Part shown: in pieces, positions 5,570 to 43,944 of the stretch
Layout: each line of letters opens with the position of its first letter
Numbering within the stretch: position 1 is the first letter of the stretch
Source: a virus
Length of the DNA: 46,417 bases
IMG/VR virus record: IMGVR_UViG_3300028597_000023
Span: 1 to 46,417 of that record
Strand: one strand, 5' to 3'
Notes under the pieces: generated by a model
What the model saw: only the letters and a program-made list of their open reading frames with translations
Databases searched by the model: none
What the model was told of the DNA's origin: nothing
Program-made: the position numbers and the translations under genes

Positions 5570-5593
5570 TCAACTTCCCTTATGGTGTGAGTA
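5570..5593 (-). repeat. Repeated leader element, copy A
   Basis: Copy A of a 24-nt element reading TACTCACACC-ATAAGGGAAG-TTGA on the minus strand. It is identical to copy B (27399-27422) and differs by two bases from copy C (27213-27236). Its 3' part holds a Shine-Dalgarno-like AAGGGAAG. It begins 34 nt after a sigma70-like -10 box. Confidence 0.75.
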
Positions 5594-9815: not shown

Positions 9816-10829
9816 TTACGCCAACCCTTCCTCACGCATGTGTTCGTACATCAGCGAACGTTCGAAATGATCGAAGTATTCACCAATATCCAGACTCAAA
9901 CGAGCGATGCCAAGTGGATCAACTTTTTTCGCAAGCTTCTGAACAATTGCAACGTTCTGTTCCTGCTCAAGGTCATGATCCAACGCGTTGGCCGGGGCAA
10001 GCACAGCGTGTAGTGCCATGCTGCCGTCTTCGTCGTCTTCATTTTTCAATGCGTCCAAACTCACACCGAAATTTACCTCGGTGCTGGTGCCGTCGTACAA
10101 CTTGCGGCGTTGCGTTTGTGGAACGGTGTAGGCAATTCCATACTCGTGCTCTTTCGTCGTGGTTGTTGCGTTTTTTGCCCACGTCGCAATATACGAAGAC
10201 AAGGCACCCTTGTCGCTATCGTATTTATCCAGCGCAACGATAATACTTTTGATGATCGACTGCACCAGATCACGGTAACTGGAATTGCAATGCGATTGAG
10301 TCACGTGCGCCTTGGCAACCTTGTTGCTGTTTTTGACGTACTGCCCAATCACGATATTTCGATACTTGTAAAATTCCACAAGGTAGGCGTCTGCCAGCAG
10401 CAGCGTCTTGTACAATTCCGACCGACCGCACTTCGCCACTTTCGCAGCAGCGTTATCCAACGCGACTTGTCTTTCGCGTGTAGGGTTGGTCAAAAAATCC
10501 TTGTAGTCTTTTACGTAGTCATAGTTCGCTTCCACAAAATGCTTGATGAAACGGTGAATGAAAAACCGTTCCAGTCGAGCACCGCGAATGAATGCGAATT
10601 TCTGCTTACGGTCTGTAACGCTCAAGTACGCTGCCAGCTTTTCGACAACCACTTCACGCTCCAGCGAACTAAGTTTGCGTTTGCGGTTGGTTGCGATCAG
10701 GATCAACAGGTACTCAATCTGTGCATCAAAAACATTGGTGAACAGGATCAAAGGCTCAAGGGCTTTGTACAGCAGCATGTCCATGATTTGCTGAACTTGT
10801 TCACCGGTCAAATTTTTATCAGCAGACAT
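9816..10829 (-). CDS. Sigma70-like factor, 337 aa
   Basis: Probable phage sigma factor that would redirect host RNA polymerase. Residues about 186-225 (DLVQSIIKSIIVALDKYD, then GALSSYIATWAKNATTTT) match sigma region 2.3-2.4: in host sigma70 the same place reads as an amphipathic helix, K-F-D-x-x-G, then an aromatic-rich -10 reading helix. VPQTQRRK at 236-243 resembles the start of region 3. The C-terminal third is acidic then helical and could be a degenerate region 4. ATG at 10829 has AGGAGAG upstream. No core polymerase gene was found here, so it must use host core or core encoded elsewhere. Confidence 0.75.
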   Translation of the reverse strand: MSADKNLTGEQVQQIMDMLLYKALEPLILFTNVFDAQIEYLLILIATNRKRKLSSLEREVVVEKLAAYLSVTDRKQKFAFIRGARLERFFIHRFIKHFVEANYDYVKDYKDFLTNPTRERQVALDNAAAKVAKCGRSELYKTLLLADAYLVEFYKYRNIVIGQYVKNSNKVAKAHVTQSHCNSSYRDLVQSIIKSIIVALDKYDSDKGALSSYIATWAKNATTTTKEHEYGIAYTVPQTQRRKLYDGTSTEVNFGVSLDALKNEDDEDGSMALHAVLAPANALDHDLEQEQNVAIVQKLAKKVDPLGIARLSLDIGEYFDHFERSLMYEHMREEGLA

Positions 10830-21000: not shown

Positions 21001-21888
21001 TTATTTAGGTTTAGATTTCTTGATGATCGAAATACCAACGAGGGTGTTGGCTTCGCGTGGTAGGTGTTTGAATTCACCTTGGACTGCTTGAACACTCAGT
21101 ACATTTACAGTTTCATCAATGAGCAACGCATTGAAGAACGCCAGAGTGGTGGGCCGTACAAAGAAATTAGAAACGTCAAAAGCAACATACAGCGCGGTAT
21201 CAACGCTGGTAGCGCTTGCGGCGTTACGAACACGTGCAACGTAAAGTTTGCGGAACTCTTCGAGCGAATCCATTGAAGTGAGTTGCGCAACGTGAATGTA
21301 AACGTTCACGTCGATATGCACTTCATTTACAGTTTCCGCATCGACGGACTGTTCGCGCTTGTACGTAAGAACAACATCGGTTTTGAACATATCCGAATAG
21401 GCAATGCTAAAAGAAGCGCCCAATTGTTCAATTACGTCGCCGCCGAAGCATTCAGCCAATTTGGCCTTAATTGCGTCCACTTGCGTATCAATACGCAGAC
21501 GGGCCGTTTCTTCGTTTGCAGCGAGAATTACGTAGTTCTGTTCGGAGATATGCTGAATGAAACGAAATACCGATTCGAACCCTTCAACCGCAATGCCGTT
21601 GTTTTTACGCGACAGCGGAATAGCGAGACTAACCGGTGTATCGGAACCATCAACATCAAACGTTTCAACCTCTTCTACGACTTCATTTACAGTATTGCAA
21701 ACGGCGCCGAGGAAGATGTTCAGATGCGGTGTAATCCGAATAGGGAATTCCGCAATGTTTTTGCTTGGATCGTCCGGCGTTTGGTCAGCGGGACGATTGG
21801 TATTTGCTGGTTCCTGCGCCGGGGTGAGAACGCGTGCGTCCATACGTACACGCTCGTCGGCGATATGTTCGGGTGATTTGTCCATCAT
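21001..21888 (-). CDS. Hypothetical protein, 295 aa
   Basis: Not recognised. A polar N-terminus of ~45 residues, then mixed beta/alpha. Three Thr-Val-Asn triplets are each coded as ACT GTA AAT (at 21104, 21326 and 21686), so the octamer ACTGTAAA occurs three times in frame. ATG at 21888 has GAGG eight nt upstream and overlaps the previous stop (ATGA). Confidence 0.75.
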   Translation of the reverse strand: MMDKSPEHIADERVRMDARVLTPAQEPANTNRPADQTPDDPSKNIAEFPIRITPHLNIFLGAVCNTVNEVVEEVETFDVDGSDTPVSLAIPLSRKNNGIAVEGFESVFRFIQHISEQNYVILAANEETARLRIDTQVDAIKAKLAECFGGDVIEQLGASFSIAYSDMFKTDVVLTYKREQSVDAETVNEVHIDVNVYIHVAQLTSMDSLEEFRKLYVARVRNAASATSVDTALYVAFDVSNFFVRPTTLAFFNALLIDETVNVLSVQAVQGEFKHLPREANTLVGISIIKKSKPK

Positions 21889-23966: not shown

Positions 23967-25397
23967 TTACAGGGAATTGATTACGTCGAGGATTGCAGCA
24001 GCGTTGGAAGCGCGACGTGCAACCGAACCGTCTTTGCTCGAAAGAGCGTAAACGTCGATCATCTTTTGACCGGCGAACATTTGCTGAACGATTTTCACGC
24101 TCAGTTCATATTCGTTTTCGTCTTTGACGATCATGATATTCAGAACACCGTCGTCAAGTTCCGATGCCGAATCATTTGGCAATTCAGCGCGAACACCTTC
24201 CAGCAATTCAACGCGACGGTTGAATTCGGATTCGCTCACGCGTTCATCGTCAATGACTTTGTAAGCCGGTTCAGCTTCGGCAGCGGTTTCGGCTTCGGGC
24301 GCCTGTGCTTCGTTTTGAGCAACGTTCGACGTTTCGCCTTGTGGTTCTTCGGCGAAGGTATCGTCTGCGCTTTCAACGGGGCTTGCAGGGGCTTGCGCGG
24401 TCACTGGTTGAACTGGTGGTTTCTCCCAGTTGATCGGGGCCGGTTCCTGCGCGGCTTGTTCTTCGGCAACAGCAGCGGCCAGCGCTTGCTCTTCGGTTTG
24501 TTCTGGTTTCGATTCCGCTACAGAAGGTTGCAATTCTTCTTCGGGGAAATCGTCGTCGCTGTTTTCGCTTTGCGGTGCCTGTTCACCTTCGCGAATTTGC
24601 GGAACGAGAACGTCTGCGTTTGCGTTTGCATCTTCCTCTTCGAACGAATCGTCTTCGTCGTCGGAATCATTTGCAGGTACAGCCACTGGCGAAACCGGGG
24701 TTTCCGAATCGTCTTCGTCATCCAGATCGTCTTCGTCTTCGTCGGCGTCCGCGAGGATCGGCGAAACTTGCTCTTCTGGTTCTTCGTCGGCAACGTATTC
24801 GTAACCGCCATCGCCATCTTCGAAAATATCGGCGACAGGAATTTGCGTTTCGCTTTCGTTATCCAGCACGGCGAAATATTCGCCTTCGCGTTCAACGATT
24901 TCTTTTACGGTTTCGAGAACGCCGTTAACGTCCACGTCACCGCCCACCAGAATTTCCGGGTCGTCGTGATGTGCTTCGCTATCGTCTTCGTCGTCATCGT
25001 CCACTGGCGGCATGCCCAGCGCTTCGTCATCGTCCAGCAAATCAATCAACGTATCGTGATCGACTTCGTGGCTGGCGATGTAAACCGAAATGATGCCTTC
25101 GTCGGCTTCGGTGATGTAGGTGAAATTCAAACCGAACTCATCGGCGTAATGACGCGCCAATTCTTCCAGCGTGGTTTCCTGCACTGCTTCGCTCAAAAGA
25201 GCGTAATACGGCAGATTCAGTTTCTTCGCGAAAATCGGCGAATGCCGTGGGGTTTCAATGCCGAAAAATTCCGGCTCGAAACGGCGCCAGTCCAGCAGCG
25301 CTTCGGTGCTGGTCGAAAGCGCGTTGTCGATTACGCGGCGGAAAATGTTTTTGCTATCCAGTTGGGCAGCGGTTTGCAGGAACGAAATGCTATTCAT
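23967..25397 (-). CDS. Large acidic protein of unknown function, 476 aa
   Basis: Function unknown. The first ~130 residues and the last ~80 look folded; the middle (about 150-370) is a low-complexity Glu/Asp/Pro/Ala/Gln region with stretches such as DEDEDDLDDEDD. A linker of this sort may separate two domains. ATG at 25397 has GGAG eight nt upstream; the frame extends to 25442 but through a hairpin. Its expression unit ends at the 23933-23960 terminator. Confidence 0.8.
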   Translation of the reverse strand: MNSISFLQTAAQLDSKNIFRRVIDNALSTSTEALLDWRRFEPEFFGIETPRHSPIFAKKLNLPYYALLSEAVQETTLEELARHYADEFGLNFTYITEADEGIISVYIASHEVDHDTLIDLLDDDEALGMPPVDDDDEDDSEAHHDDPEILVGGDVDVNGVLETVKEIVEREGEYFAVLDNESETQIPVADIFEDGDGGYEYVADEEPEEQVSPILADADEDEDDLDDEDDSETPVSPVAVPANDSDDEDDSFEEEDANANADVLVPQIREGEQAPQSENSDDDFPEEELQPSVAESKPEQTEEQALAAAVAEEQAAQEPAPINWEKPPVQPVTAQAPASPVESADDTFAEEPQGETSNVAQNEAQAPEAETAAEAEPAYKVIDDERVSESEFNRRVELLEGVRAELPNDSASELDDGVLNIMIVKDENEYELSVKIVQQMFAGQKMIDVYALSSKDGSVARRASNAAAILDVINSL

Positions 25398-25418: not shown

Positions 25419-25440
25419 GGGCGAGTTAATTAACCCGCCC
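25419..25440 (-). terminator. Hairpin between 582-aa and 476-aa genes
   Basis: Stem GGGCG...CGCCC around a GTTAATTAAC core, 20 nt after the stop at 25460. Followed by TATATTTT: a plausible terminator, or a 5' hairpin for the next gene. Confidence 0.5.
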
Positions 25441-25459: not shown

Positions 25460-27208
25460 TTATTCGCCGCGCTTGTCTTCTTCTACCAGAATTTGCAGGG
25501 CGTCCAGATCAACGTTCGAACGTGCGGCTGCGGTTTTCACGTTTACCAGCAGAACCGAACCATCAGGTTTCAGACCGCCCAGCGCGTAATCTTCACCGTC
25601 GATAACGATAGTCATGCCCGGTTCGATTTCGTATTCAACGGCGTCGAATGCTTCTTGCGAAGCGTACCAGCGAGTTACAAAACCGGTCATGGTTTTGGTC
25701 GGGAACAATTTCGACAAACGACCTACACCCGATTCAACCAGTTGAGTAGCGTCTTCGGGGAATGCGATTTCTGCCGGTTCTTCGTCCGGGAAATCTGCAT
25801 CATCTTCGGATTCGTCTTCGTCGTCGGCGTCGTCAGCGTCGGAATCGTCTTCGTCCGGGAAATCTGCATCATCGTCGTCCGATGCAACAACCGGATTTGG
25901 CGCGTCTTCTTCTTCGTCGTCTTCGTCGTCTTCGTCAGCCAGTTCGGACGGGTTGAAATCGTCGCCATTCAGTTTTGCTTTTGGGTTGCCTTTTGGAGCA
26001 GGCGTGCCGCTGGCCTGTTCTTCCATGTTTGCACGGAAGGCTTCGATTTTCGATTTCACCAATGCAGCCGGGGCGTCAGCGGTGTGAATCTGGAACGAAA
26101 TGGTTGCAATTTGATCTTCGTATTGCACCAGCGAACCAGAAACATCAACGTCGTACGCATCAGCCAATGCAGCACGTACAGCTTTTTCCAGCAGATCGCG
26201 AACATCGGCAACGGTGTCGTAATCGAACGCGCCAACTTCCACGATTTGGCTAACTGGTTCTGGCGCCGGACGTTGACGCGGAACAGCACCACCTTTTTTC
26301 TCGGACAGTTCACCGGTGTAAATGAAGCCGCGACCTTTACGCGCAACATCAGCAACCGAGAAACGGAAACCTTTGTTGGTTTCAACGGTGTCGTCTTTGA
26401 AAGTTTTTTCAACAACGTGCGTAACGTCACCAACGGCAATGTTTTTGCCTTTCAGGTCAGCACGTTTGATCGGTGCCGGGGCACGCGAAGGTTTTGCATC
26501 AGCAGCTTTTGCAGCAGGCGTTGGAGCCGGTGCGTTTGCAGCTTTGTACTCGGCGGTTTCCAGAACGTATTTACCGCCAACGTTGCGGATTTCGCCGGTT
26601 TCGCCTTTGTAGCCTTTATCGGTTTTGAACTTTTCACCGGTAACGGTGGAAACGATGGTGTGCAGTTTGCCGTCGATACGGATTTTCAAACCACCGGCTT
26701 TTACAGCAGGACGGATATCGGCGTTGGTAACAGTGCTACCGGCATCAGCAGGTTTTGCTTTTGCACGAGCGCCGCCAGCTACTTTTGGTGCTGGTGCGGC
26801 TGCGCCTTCGGTAACGTAACCACGGCCTTTACGCGAAACATTGGCGATTTCAACAACGGAACCGTCTTCCAGCGTAATCATGCCGGTACGACGTGCAACT
26901 TTCACCACGGCGAGGCCGTCGATTTTCCGACCGTCGATTTCGTCAAGGGTGACGGCGGTTGCAGTACGTTCGGCGGGCTTGCGGGAATTTTCAGCAGGAG
27001 CGGCAGAACCGGCTTTTGCTTTTCCAGCGCCAGCAGCAGTAACGAACAGGCCGCGACCTTTTTTGCGCAGATCGGCAATGTTGTATTCGTTGCCTTCTTC
27101 GGTGCGCACGATGCCTTTCGTGTTCAATTGCTTGAGAATGGTTTCTTGATGAACGCCTTTACGCGATTCAACGTTCAGTTTCTTACCAACGAATTCGGTG
27201 TTAGCCAT
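25460..27208 (-). CDS. Repeat-built protein with four KGRG-type modules, 582 aa
   Basis: No family recognised. Four related modules of ~35-45 residues at about 23-56, 98-132, 170-216 and 250-298, each a short beta-hairpin-like G-x-I/V...D/EG pattern; three end in I/VADx-xRKGRG-F/L/Y (the third lacks KGRG). Ala/Pro/Lys-rich linkers separate them. The pattern recalls small SH3/KOW-like modules, unproven. A single domain (~320-395), an acidic Asp/Glu region (~410-460) and a C-terminal beta domain (LFPTKTMTGFVTRWYASQE) follow. ATG at 27208 sits right after leader copy C, so it is likely an early gene from promoter C. Confidence 0.85.
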   Translation of the reverse strand: MANTEFVGKKLNVESRKGVHQETILKQLNTKGIVRTEEGNEYNIADLRKKGRGLFVTAAGAGKAKAGSAAPAENSRKPAERTATAVTLDEIDGRKIDGLAVVKVARRTGMITLEDGSVVEIANVSRKGRGYVTEGAAAPAPKVAGGARAKAKPADAGSTVTNADIRPAVKAGGLKIRIDGKLHTIVSTVTGEKFKTDKGYKGETGEIRNVGGKYVLETAEYKAANAPAPTPAAKAADAKPSRAPAPIKRADLKGKNIAVGDVTHVVEKTFKDDTVETNKGFRFSVADVARKGRGFIYTGELSEKKGGAVPRQRPAPEPVSQIVEVGAFDYDTVADVRDLLEKAVRAALADAYDVDVSGSLVQYEDQIATISFQIHTADAPAALVKSKIEAFRANMEEQASGTPAPKGNPKAKLNGDDFNPSELADEDDEDDEEEDAPNPVVASDDDDADFPDEDDSDADDADDEDESEDDADFPDEEPAEIAFPEDATQLVESGVGRLSKLFPTKTMTGFVTRWYASQEAFDAVEYEIEPGMTIVIDGEDYALGGLKPDGSVLLVNVKTAAARSNVDLDALQILVEEDKRGE

Positions 27209-27212
27209 GGTG

Positions 27213-27236
27213 TCAACTTCCTTTAGGGTGTGAGTA
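27213..27236 (-). repeat. Repeated leader element, copy C
   Basis: Copy C of the 24-nt leader (two changes from A and B), ending in the ribosome binding site AAAGGAAG of the gene starting at 27208. Begins 32 nt after the -10 box at 27269. Confidence 0.75.
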
Positions 27237-27398: not shown

Positions 27399-27422
27399 TC
27401 AACTTCCCTTATGGTGTGAGTA
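27399..27422 (-). repeat. Repeated leader element, copy B
   Basis: Identical to copy A. Its SD-like part leads to the 15-codon frame at 27398, not a long gene. Begins 34 nt after the -10 box at 27457. Confidence 0.75.
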
Positions 27423-28405: not shown

Positions 28406-28969
28406 TTAGGCTTTGGCAGCTTTGGCCGGAGCAGCTTTCGGCGCTTTGGCGACGGCGGCAGCTTTCACTTTCGGAGTACCAGCTTTGGTAACACCGACAG
28501 CGACAGGGGCAGCGGCAACCGGTGCAGCAGCTTTGGCGACGGCAGCTTTCGGCGCAGCTTTGGCAGCAGCTTTGGCAGCAGCTTTTGCAGCCTTGGCTTT
28601 TTCCTTGGCGATGCGATCAGCTTCTTTCTGCTTGGCAGCGGCTTTGTCGTCAGCAGCTTTTTTGCGAGCGGCTTCTTTTTCTTCTTTCTGAATGCGGGCG
28701 ATGTTGGCTTTGCTATCACCGATTTCCACGGTCAGAATGGTGATAACTTTTTCCAGTTGCTCAACGTTGCCAGCAGCGGCTTTTTGCGAAGCCTGTGCGA
28801 TTTTCGGAGCGGAAGCCAGAACCAGTTTGCCTTGGGTTTTGACTTGAGCCTGAGCGGCTTTCAGTTGAGCTTTGGTATCAGCCAGAGCAGCTTCTTGACC
28901 GACCAGAATTTTGCGAGCGGCGGCAACGGCTTTGGAATCTTTTACAACTGGTTTGGTAACGGTAGTCAT
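28406..28969 (-). CDS. Ala/Lys-rich coiled-coil protein, 187 aa
   Basis: Residues ~10-125 form a long predicted helix/coiled coil (LADTKAQLKAAQAQVKTQ and following). Residues ~120-187 are almost only Ala, Lys, Pro and Val (KAAAKAAAKAAPKAAV), the composition of histone H1 tails and of H1-like proteins in Pseudomonas. Likely a nucleic-acid-condensing or scaffolding protein; no specific function can be given. ATG at 28969 has AGGAAA upstream and a strong terminator follows. Confidence 0.8.
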   Translation of the reverse strand: MTTVTKPVVKDSKAVAAARKILVGQEAALADTKAQLKAAQAQVKTQGKLVLASAPKIAQASQKAAAGNVEQLEKVITILTVEIGDSKANIARIQKEEKEAARKKAADDKAAAKQKEADRIAKEKAKAAKAAAKAAAKAAPKAAVAKAAAPVAAAPVAVGVTKAGTPKVKAAAVAKAPKAAPAKAAKA

Positions 28970-42858: not shown

Positions 42859-43944
42859 ATGACTATTAAACGCGGCCCAAGAAACAACCCGCGCAAGAAT
42901 GCGCGAAACATCACGCACAAACAGGCCCAAGCCCGGTTAACTGAAACCGTTGTGGCCTTTAACAATCAAGTGCAAAACTCTTTGGCCGTCGATGCGGTCA
43001 AGGTCACGCTGTATCAGGTAAACCGTTTGATCGGACGGCCATGCACTTGCTGTATGACCAATGTGCCGCGTGCACCCGGTTCGAATATGGCACCGGTTAT
43101 TCCTGATGCAGATCGCTCCAACGAAGGTTTTGAATTGGATTTGCAAGACGACGATATTTTCGGTTCGTCTCTTTCCGACAAAATCATGAATGACGATGTA
43201 ATCAATGTCAGCGGCGGAATGGATGACGGCCTTATGGGCATTTCCGAACCGGACGATGACATTTACGATGATGCCCTAATGCAAGGCAGCGTAAACTGCG
43301 GCATTTGCTATCGAACTTTGCGCCAGCCCGGATACAAAGCGTACGGCATGCAGCGCACGATGTTTACCAATTACGATATGGAAAACGTCAGCGGCTACAC
43401 AGTCGATTCCACCAGCGCCCCGCATGCATTTGTGCAGGAACGTGGTGACGGTTTCGTATCGTTCCAATTGGTTGTGCCTCGTTATTTCAAAGCCGTCACA
43501 TTCAGCGTGCGTGAAGATTTGAAAGTTCTGCATGATCGCCCACTGAATGACGAAAACAACGAACTGAAAATTGATGAGTTGCGTAGGTACGCCGGTCGCA
43601 CGATGGAATTCCGTGTGAAGGCCCCACGTTTTACCCACGTGATTTTCGAATTCGATTTGGGTATCGAACGTTTGAATGCAAACATCGGCGGTGAAAACAC
43701 CGTGCTCAACTACGACCGTTTGCAAACGATGGCAGACATTCCAATTGTTTTGGGGCCGGAAGTGCAAGACGTAAACGAGGGCGACATTGTTGCCATTCCC
43801 GAACGTCGGCTCTTTCTGAAAATCCACGACAAGGAACGAAAAATCACTGCTGACCAACGCCGTTTGGAATGGGTTTGTAATGCCCGCGTTCTACAGCCAA
43901 CCGAACCACTGATTCACATTGCCCGAGGGTATCGCCTGCGATGA
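42859..43944 (+). CDS. Hypothetical Cys-pair protein, 361 aa
   Basis: Function unknown; a virion protein is possible but not supported by motif. Basic N-terminus, C62/C64/C65 (PCTCCM), an acidic insert (~85-140, ELDLQDDDIFG and DDDIYDDALM), then C147/C150 (NCGICY). The two Cys groups may form one zinc site split by the acidic insert. The C-terminal ~180 residues are beta-rich (FVSFQLVVPRYFKAVTF). ATG at 42859 has GGAGG upstream. First gene of a coupled plus-strand operon. Confidence 0.75.
   Translation: MTIKRGPRNNPRKNARNITHKQAQARLTETVVAFNNQVQNSLAVDAVKVTLYQVNRLIGRPCTCCMTNVPRAPGSNMAPVIPDADRSNEGFELDLQDDDIFGSSLSDKIMNDDVINVSGGMDDGLMGISEPDDDIYDDALMQGSVNCGICYRTLRQPGYKAYGMQRTMFTNYDMENVSGYTVDSTSAPHAFVQERGDGFVSFQLVVPRYFKAVTFSVREDLKVLHDRPLNDENNELKIDELRRYAGRTMEFRVKAPRFTHVIFEFDLGIERLNANIGGENTVLNYDRLQTMADIPIVLGPEVQDVNEGDIVAIPERRLFLKIHDKERKITADQRRLEWVCNARVLQPTEPLIHIARGYRLR

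Follow-up and report, generated by a model that had tools for sequence, protein, structure and literature searches.

The window analysed here, a virus record of 46,417 bases, represents a giant bacterial virus that is kin of Pseudomonas phage Lu11. A first-pass annotation had placed a repeat protein at positions 25460-27208, an observation that was borne out, the interval corresponding exactly to one complete minus-strand open reading frame (P0003) with an ATG start at 27208, encoding a 582-aa protein with four related modules and further domains and preceded by tandem promoters. From the N-terminus, the protein consists of four modules of ~50 aa on Ala/Pro/Lys-rich linkers, an alpha-beta domain, an acidic stretch and a C-terminal domain. 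Charge is distributed unequally, with a net value of +20 and a pI of 9.9 in the N-terminal half and an acidic C-terminal half, the protein as a whole being acidic (net -33). Self-matches of the DNA, one at 19.8 kb and one at 37.6 kb, involve the acid-coding part and have the look of low complexity, and an Rfam search gave no match in the region of the gene.

The modules, all on the minus strand, were delimited by profile comparisons and AlphaFold2 models. Module 1 (M1; aa 5-60, 27029-27196) ends in RKKGRG-LFVT, M2 (aa 92-136, 26801-26935) in SRKGRG-YVTE and M4 (aa 251-300, 26309-26458) in ARKGRG-FIYT, while M3 (aa 172-220, 26549-26695), the most diverged, reads VGGKYVLE and has no KGRG. Profile-profile comparison gave probabilities of 91-95% for five of the six pairs (M1-M2, M1-M3, M1-M4, M2-M4 and M3-M4) and a weak 17% for M2-M3, versus 0.6% or less for any module against the two other domains. 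In addition, profiles built from three modules recovered the one held out from the window protein in every case, strongly for M1 (E 3e-7) and M4 (E 1e-9) and moderately for M2 (E 0.003) and M3 (E 0.011). Thus, as judged from these profiles, the four modules are homologous to each other, as had been claimed. The shared KGRG ending reported for three of them was likewise found in M1, M2 and M4 of the window protein. Among eight homologs, [K/R]-G-[K/R]-G is kept in M1 in all eight and in M2 in seven, whereas KGRG in M4 is restricted to the window protein and one contig homolog (L026), the motif not being conserved in modules 3 and 4. Module charge is mild in the window protein, ranging from 0 to +4, and in homologs the region of M3 carries a negative charge; the linkers between modules are basic and rich in Ala, Pro and Lys.

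Structure prediction with AlphaFold2 was performed on the full protein (7 sequences aligned) and on M1 alone (27 aligned modules). In the full-protein model, pLDDT was ~80-86 for M1, M2 and M4 and ~70 for M3. The alpha-beta domain reached ~60-65 and the C-terminal domain ~75-80, and values fell below 50 across most linkers and the acidic stretch. M1 alone was modelled at a pLDDT of 90, with strands at residues 6-11, 14-24, 29-32 and 37-39, a helical turn, and strands at 44-46 and 49-53, the K-G-R-G sequence forming the turn between the last two strands. Each module probably adopts an SH3-like small-barrel topology on the basis of this model. Foldseek searches of the PDB returned no E below 0.2 for the single module and none below 0.07 for the full model, the best matches of the module, all non-significant, being PRC barrels, Tudor domains and ribosomal proteins. 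Among predicted viral structures, the module matched the PaBG homolog and an entry of 616 residues, which is as long as Lu11_0154, both at TM 0.85, as well as a 61-aa orphan phage protein (TM 0.78, E 2e-3). Prediction and fold search of one module, proposed beforehand as a check, therefore gave an SH3-like topology and no significant match to a solved fold, and the modules did not prove to be a known domain, as no Pfam family was recovered at its cut-off. KOW membership was rejected, since the match of M3 to the KOW-like Pfam family EFP_N scored 14.5 bits against a cut-off of 23 and consensus modules gave no KOW match in Pfam; Tudor and PRC-barrel membership was rejected on the Foldseek values and the lack of a Pfam match. 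As no Pfam or PHROG family scores meaningfully and no fold match is significant, the module is best called, from its model, an SH3-like barrel outside assigned families.

The single domain and the acidic region described after the modules are both real. The former (aa 325-402; 26003-26236, minus strand), delimited by AlphaFold2 and profile comparison, has an alpha-beta-beta-alpha arrangement and is common to PaBG. The acidic stretch (aa 403-482; 25763-26002, minus strand) has a net charge of -36 in 80 aa, with 49% D/E, and is probably disordered, its pLDDT being below 50. The description of the C-terminus as another beta domain held only in part; a domain is present (aa 483-582; 25463-25762, minus strand; alignment and AlphaFold2), but it is not purely beta, two helices preceding the strands. 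It carries a WYxSQxxFD...EPG motif and is conserved as far as PaBG and a diverged contig homolog (L041).

A tblastn search of 50,697 phage records matched only Lu11 (Lu11_0154) and HRDY3. Scans of IMG/VR viral contigs with the single protein or the whole-protein alignment gave no relative because the short patterns included the acidic stretch, leaving few useful ones. IMG/VR homologs were reached instead through two nearby genes, those for the 5'-3' exonuclease and for gyrase A, a family-profile search of the contigs so found identifying five further homologs, two of them partial. PaBG_00131 (L034:24836-26158), located downstream of the exonuclease gene, is a weaker homolog (E 5e-12 in the loci searched) with one module (E 7e-10 with a held-out module profile), recognisable alpha-beta and C-terminal domains and, at aa ~250-290 inside its acidic region, two helices that weakly resemble a SAP domain (E 0.02, below cut-off). 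A diverged homolog in contig G005 (L041) is tied to the family mainly through PaBG (C-terminal domain, pairwise blastp 8e-13), and its N-terminal region gave no match to the module profile. No relative was detected in bacterial and archaeal genomes scanned with module 1, and no homolog in the whole record of Dickeya phage AD1. The window protein belongs with Lu11_0154 and PaBG_00131, its gene having the equivalent position and its modules, alpha-beta domain, acidic stretch and C-terminal domain occurring in the same order. Identity over the protein is 31-41% in the family, versus 65% between window and Lu11 for the nearby gyrase A. Combined, the set of homologs (Lu11, HRDY3, IMG/VR, PaBG and L041) and the empty bacterial and archaeal scan indicate a clade-specific family in which, on sequence comparison, the alpha-beta and C-terminal domains are most widely kept and module number varies. 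The earlier remark that no family with this layout was known is therefore correct as regards Pfam, PHROG and PDB-sequence families, none of which includes the module or the whole layout, the PDB sequence search returning solely acidic low-complexity or chance matches; but homologs, annotated as hypothetical proteins, exist in Lu11, HRDY3 and PaBG.

Two predicted promoters precede the gene on the minus strand, P1 (27457-27486; TTGACG-17-TACATT, extended -10 TGA) and P2 (27269-27298; TTGACG-17-TAGATT, extended -10 TGT), both identified by pattern match. Each is an exact copy of CTTGAC-N11-CCTTTGNTANNTT, the two lying 188 bp apart, and with up to three mismatches the pattern matches the window four times versus 0.37 expected, a number that no shuffle reached, confirming the tandem promoters initially proposed. 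By their sequence, P1 and P2 are sigma-70-like with an extended -10. Behind each lies a leader of the form CTCACACC[AC]TAA[AG]GGAAGTT; motif comparison locates the early-gene leader motif CTCACACCATAAGGGAAGTT at 27401-27420 after P1 and a second leader element, with the Shine-Dalgarno-like AAAGGAAG, at 27215-27234 after P2, just before the ATG (both minus strand). The position of P1 is kept in all seven phages compared, together with TTGAC, the -10 positions and the leader behind, and P2 is less uniform. A leader peptide between P1 and P2 was considered and rejected, neither its ATG nor its length being conserved.

The 20-nt leader CTCACRSMWYWRRGGAAGTT, allowing one mismatch, occurs at 37 sites in six records versus none for the reversed control. 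Three are in the window, the two above and 5572-5591 (minus strand), and the other 34 are in Lu11, HRDY3 and records G001, G003 and G004, the leader often directly preceding an ATG. Several Lu11 sites fall among the small ORFs close to the start of the genome, those at 9862 and 11548 lying directly behind record-annotated TTGACA/TATAAT-type promoters, one of them called early, and in HRDY3 and G001 the promoter-plus-leader unit directly precedes ATGs in small-ORF regions. Promoter matches were used only with at most one mismatch or with a leader behind, because at two mismatches the control gave about half as many matches as the real pattern. The leader thus appears to mark early-region genes across the Lu11 clade, and may be a translation leader or a regulatory site. 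Since the same promoter and leader recur in the early regions of relatives, the 582-aa gene is, by motif comparison, one with two early-type units in tandem, having the combination of sigma-70-like promoter and early-region leader that is taken to characterise early genes of the clade. The protein is probably made early in infection, in agreement with the early expression first suggested, which these motifs support from sequence. The Lu11 'middle/late promoter' motif AACTGTAAAT-N6-GTA, rare in the window, has one near-match, at 21676-21694 (minus strand). A terminator-like hairpin with a weak T run separates the 582-aa gene from the next gene (25419-25440, minus strand), although such matches are common by chance.

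The gene lies in a cluster encoding primase, nuclease, gyrase/topoisomerase subunits, exonuclease, sigma factor, RecA and DnaB. Its place is conserved, flanked on one side by the genes for gyrase/topoisomerase subunits and 5'-3' exonuclease and on the other by those for sigma factor, RecA and DnaB, as is the immediate run of genes, encoding in order a basic protein with an Ala/Lys-rich tail, a 269-aa protein, the 582-aa protein and a 476-aa acidic protein. The basic protein (28406-28969, minus strand; net +23, pI 10.3), found in the relatives checked, contains 46% Ala in its last 92 aa and its tail resembles H1/AlgP-like tails. The 476-aa protein (23967-25397, minus strand), encoded by the next gene, is strongly acidic (net -101) and conserved in Lu11 and HRDY3; an additional module proposed within it (aa ~150-205) was dropped as non-significant (E 9.5). 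In contig G005, a gene of HU type whose product has a long basic tail (L041:2482-3048, minus strand; PF00216 at 40-42 bits, cut-off 22.4) lies directly downstream of the diverged homolog, occupying the slot of the window's acidic gene, and the following gene appears to correspond in both. HU (PF00216) was found in this contig only, not in the window record, Lu11, HRDY3, PaBG or the other records. Lu11_0155 (L009:16923-18035), annotated as 'putative polyphosphate kinase', is an acidic low-complexity protein with no Pfam match, and from its sequence that annotation looks wrong. In the window, the plus-strand protein at 42859-43944 is matched from end to end by phrog_21298, a family of unknown function (E 1e-139).

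A second family with module-like stretches is encoded in the small-ORF early region and comprises Lu11_0007 (L037:3051-4442, minus strand), L038:9753-11282, L039:6706-8187 (minus strand) and L040:6796-8322, XDJ15321 being a member. Its module matches are weak (best E 4e-5). These proteins, unannotated in Lu11 and HRDY3, contain a KTSC domain (Pfam, E 9e-12), and in HRDY3 the leader stops 5 nt before the gene. The KTSC domain has been described as DNA-binding (PMC9503650).

Combined, these results lead us to favour tentatively, at a probability of roughly 45%, an early, non-virion, DNA-associated protein working in the manner of T4 MotB or of a nucleoid-associated protein. In the mechanism we infer, expression would begin early in infection from the two promoters, read by host RNA polymerase. 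The four predicted SH3-like barrels on flexible basic Ala/Pro/Lys linkers would bind nucleic acid weakly, multivalently and mainly non-specifically, with modules 1 and 2 making contact through their exposed, basic K-G-R-G turns. The acidic stretch could make binding tunable by competing with DNA or by engaging basic partners among proteins, and dimerisation or the recruitment of partners may fall to the alpha-beta and C-terminal domains, which distant relatives retain best. The role of the protein would be to organise phage DNA, or protect it, as it enters and replicates, to displace host nucleoid proteins, or both. This DNA-binding or nucleoid reading is favoured because of the replication and recombination neighbourhood, the HU-type gene in one relative and KTSC in the second module family, and is backed further by the SH3-like model, with PRC barrels, Tudor domains and ribosomal proteins as its best, non-significant fold matches, the basic N-terminal and acidic C-terminal halves, the weak SAP-like pair of PaBG, the early promoter and leader class and, as precedent, T4 MotB. 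It is weakened by the absence of any nucleic-acid-binding domain at curated Pfam cut-off in the 582-aa protein, by the lack of a significant fold match, and because the modules are mildly charged, the whole protein is acidic, the HU neighbour occurs in one contig and the early timing is read from sequence.

SH3-like barrels often bind proteins, which counts against DNA association, and SH3-like and Tudor folds often bind peptides. The barrels could therefore be peptide-binding SH3/Tudor-like adaptors of a protein-interaction hub that assembles phage replication and recombination enzymes or captures host proteins, without direct nucleic-acid binding, a reading that we consider somewhat unlikely. 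The mild module charge would suit it, as would the early-class promoters and leader and the fast evolution of the family relative to gyrase A, but the exposed conserved feature of M1 and M2 is a basic glycine turn rather than an aromatic or acidic groove, and the basic linkers, the DNA-metabolism context and the HU gene of one relative also argue against it. Host takeover, the role originally suggested, received no direct support, the gene neighbourhood pointing to DNA transactions. KOW-like barrels could alternatively contact RNA polymerase, nascent RNA or ribosomes in an Spt5/NusG-like or ribosomal-protein-like manner and so switch host expression to that of the phage. The EFP_N match in M3, the occurrence of Spt5-containing complexes and ribosomal proteins among the weak fold matches, and KTSC in the paralog family are consistent with such a transcription or translation factor, which is nevertheless improbable, as no KOW family matches at cut-off, those fold matches are non-significant and no NGN-like domain was recognised.

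An internal virion protein, or one ejected along with phage DNA, is very unlikely. The mixed basic and acidic, low-complexity make-up, DNA-condensing in character, would fit a protein inside the head, and two homologs weakly match head protease and scaffold PHROGs (E 0.006-0.017), but matches of this kind are what acidic low complexity yields, and the gene is located in the replication cluster with early-class promoters. This alternative is weakened further because Coomassie staining detected 14 virion proteins in PaBG (PMC7412058) and PaBG_00131 is missing from this set, an absence that also supports the DNA-associated reading, although minor proteins could escape detection. Extending the DNA-associated reading, the Ala/Lys-tailed basic protein, the bipolar multi-barrel 582-aa protein and the polyacidic protein, encoded close together, might form a chromatin-like system of the Lu11 clade that condenses or compartmentalises phage DNA through multivalent, charge-tuned binding; in one relative the HU protein takes the slot of the acidic gene in this set. 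We regard this extension as doubtful.

These results describe a conserved protein family and domain, previously undescribed, from giant phages of a group that is still poorly understood; relatives have four, one or perhaps no modules. The promoter-plus-leader motif provides a sequence handle on which genes of the Lu11 clade are early. The closest known counterparts are the hypothetical proteins Lu11_0154 (AFH14688), HRDY3 XDJ15134 and PaBG_00131 (AGS82015) of giant Pseudomonas phages, true homologs with gene position and domain order as in the window and all without assigned function. Those of Lu11 and HRDY3 have four modules, like the window protein, but are just 31-37% identical to it, whereas the PaBG protein differs in its one module and additional SAP-like helix pair. 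The Lu11_0007/XDJ15321 family is similar in having module-profile stretches on Ala/Pro/Lys linkers but differs in placing the Pfam KTSC domain between module-like stretches, in having no acidic stretch and in its net charge, +30 in Lu11. The modelled module is alike in topology to PRC-barrel, Tudor and KOW SH3-like domains (MTH1859, CdvA, PHF1 Tudor; query-normalised TM-score ~0.4-0.6), although all Foldseek E values exceed 0.2 and none of these families matches in Pfam at cut-off; the family is new and unnamed, built from what is probably a known superfold. Among nucleoid proteins, H1-like ones with Ala/Lys tails recall the basic A/K/P-rich linkers of the window protein, and a neighbour of HU type (HU/IHF, PF00216) exists in L041, but the window protein lacks an HU fold and its overall charge is acidic; HU membership was rejected on the missing fold and the lack of PF00216 in the window record. 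T4 MotB, made early, is predicted to combine a KOW SH3-like domain with an OB-fold, and the protein binds DNA non-specifically (PMC7827196). Co-purification with H-NS is a further feature of MotB. Its architecture, one N-terminal KOW and one C-terminal OB-fold domain, was rejected for the window protein, which has four barrels, alpha-beta and C-terminal domains and a long acidic stretch instead; with no sequence relation detected and a different phage group, the comparison is by analogy only. If DNA binding is true, the 582-aa protein would show how a phage can use barrels in tandem to coat or reorganise DNA, in parallel with T4 MotB.
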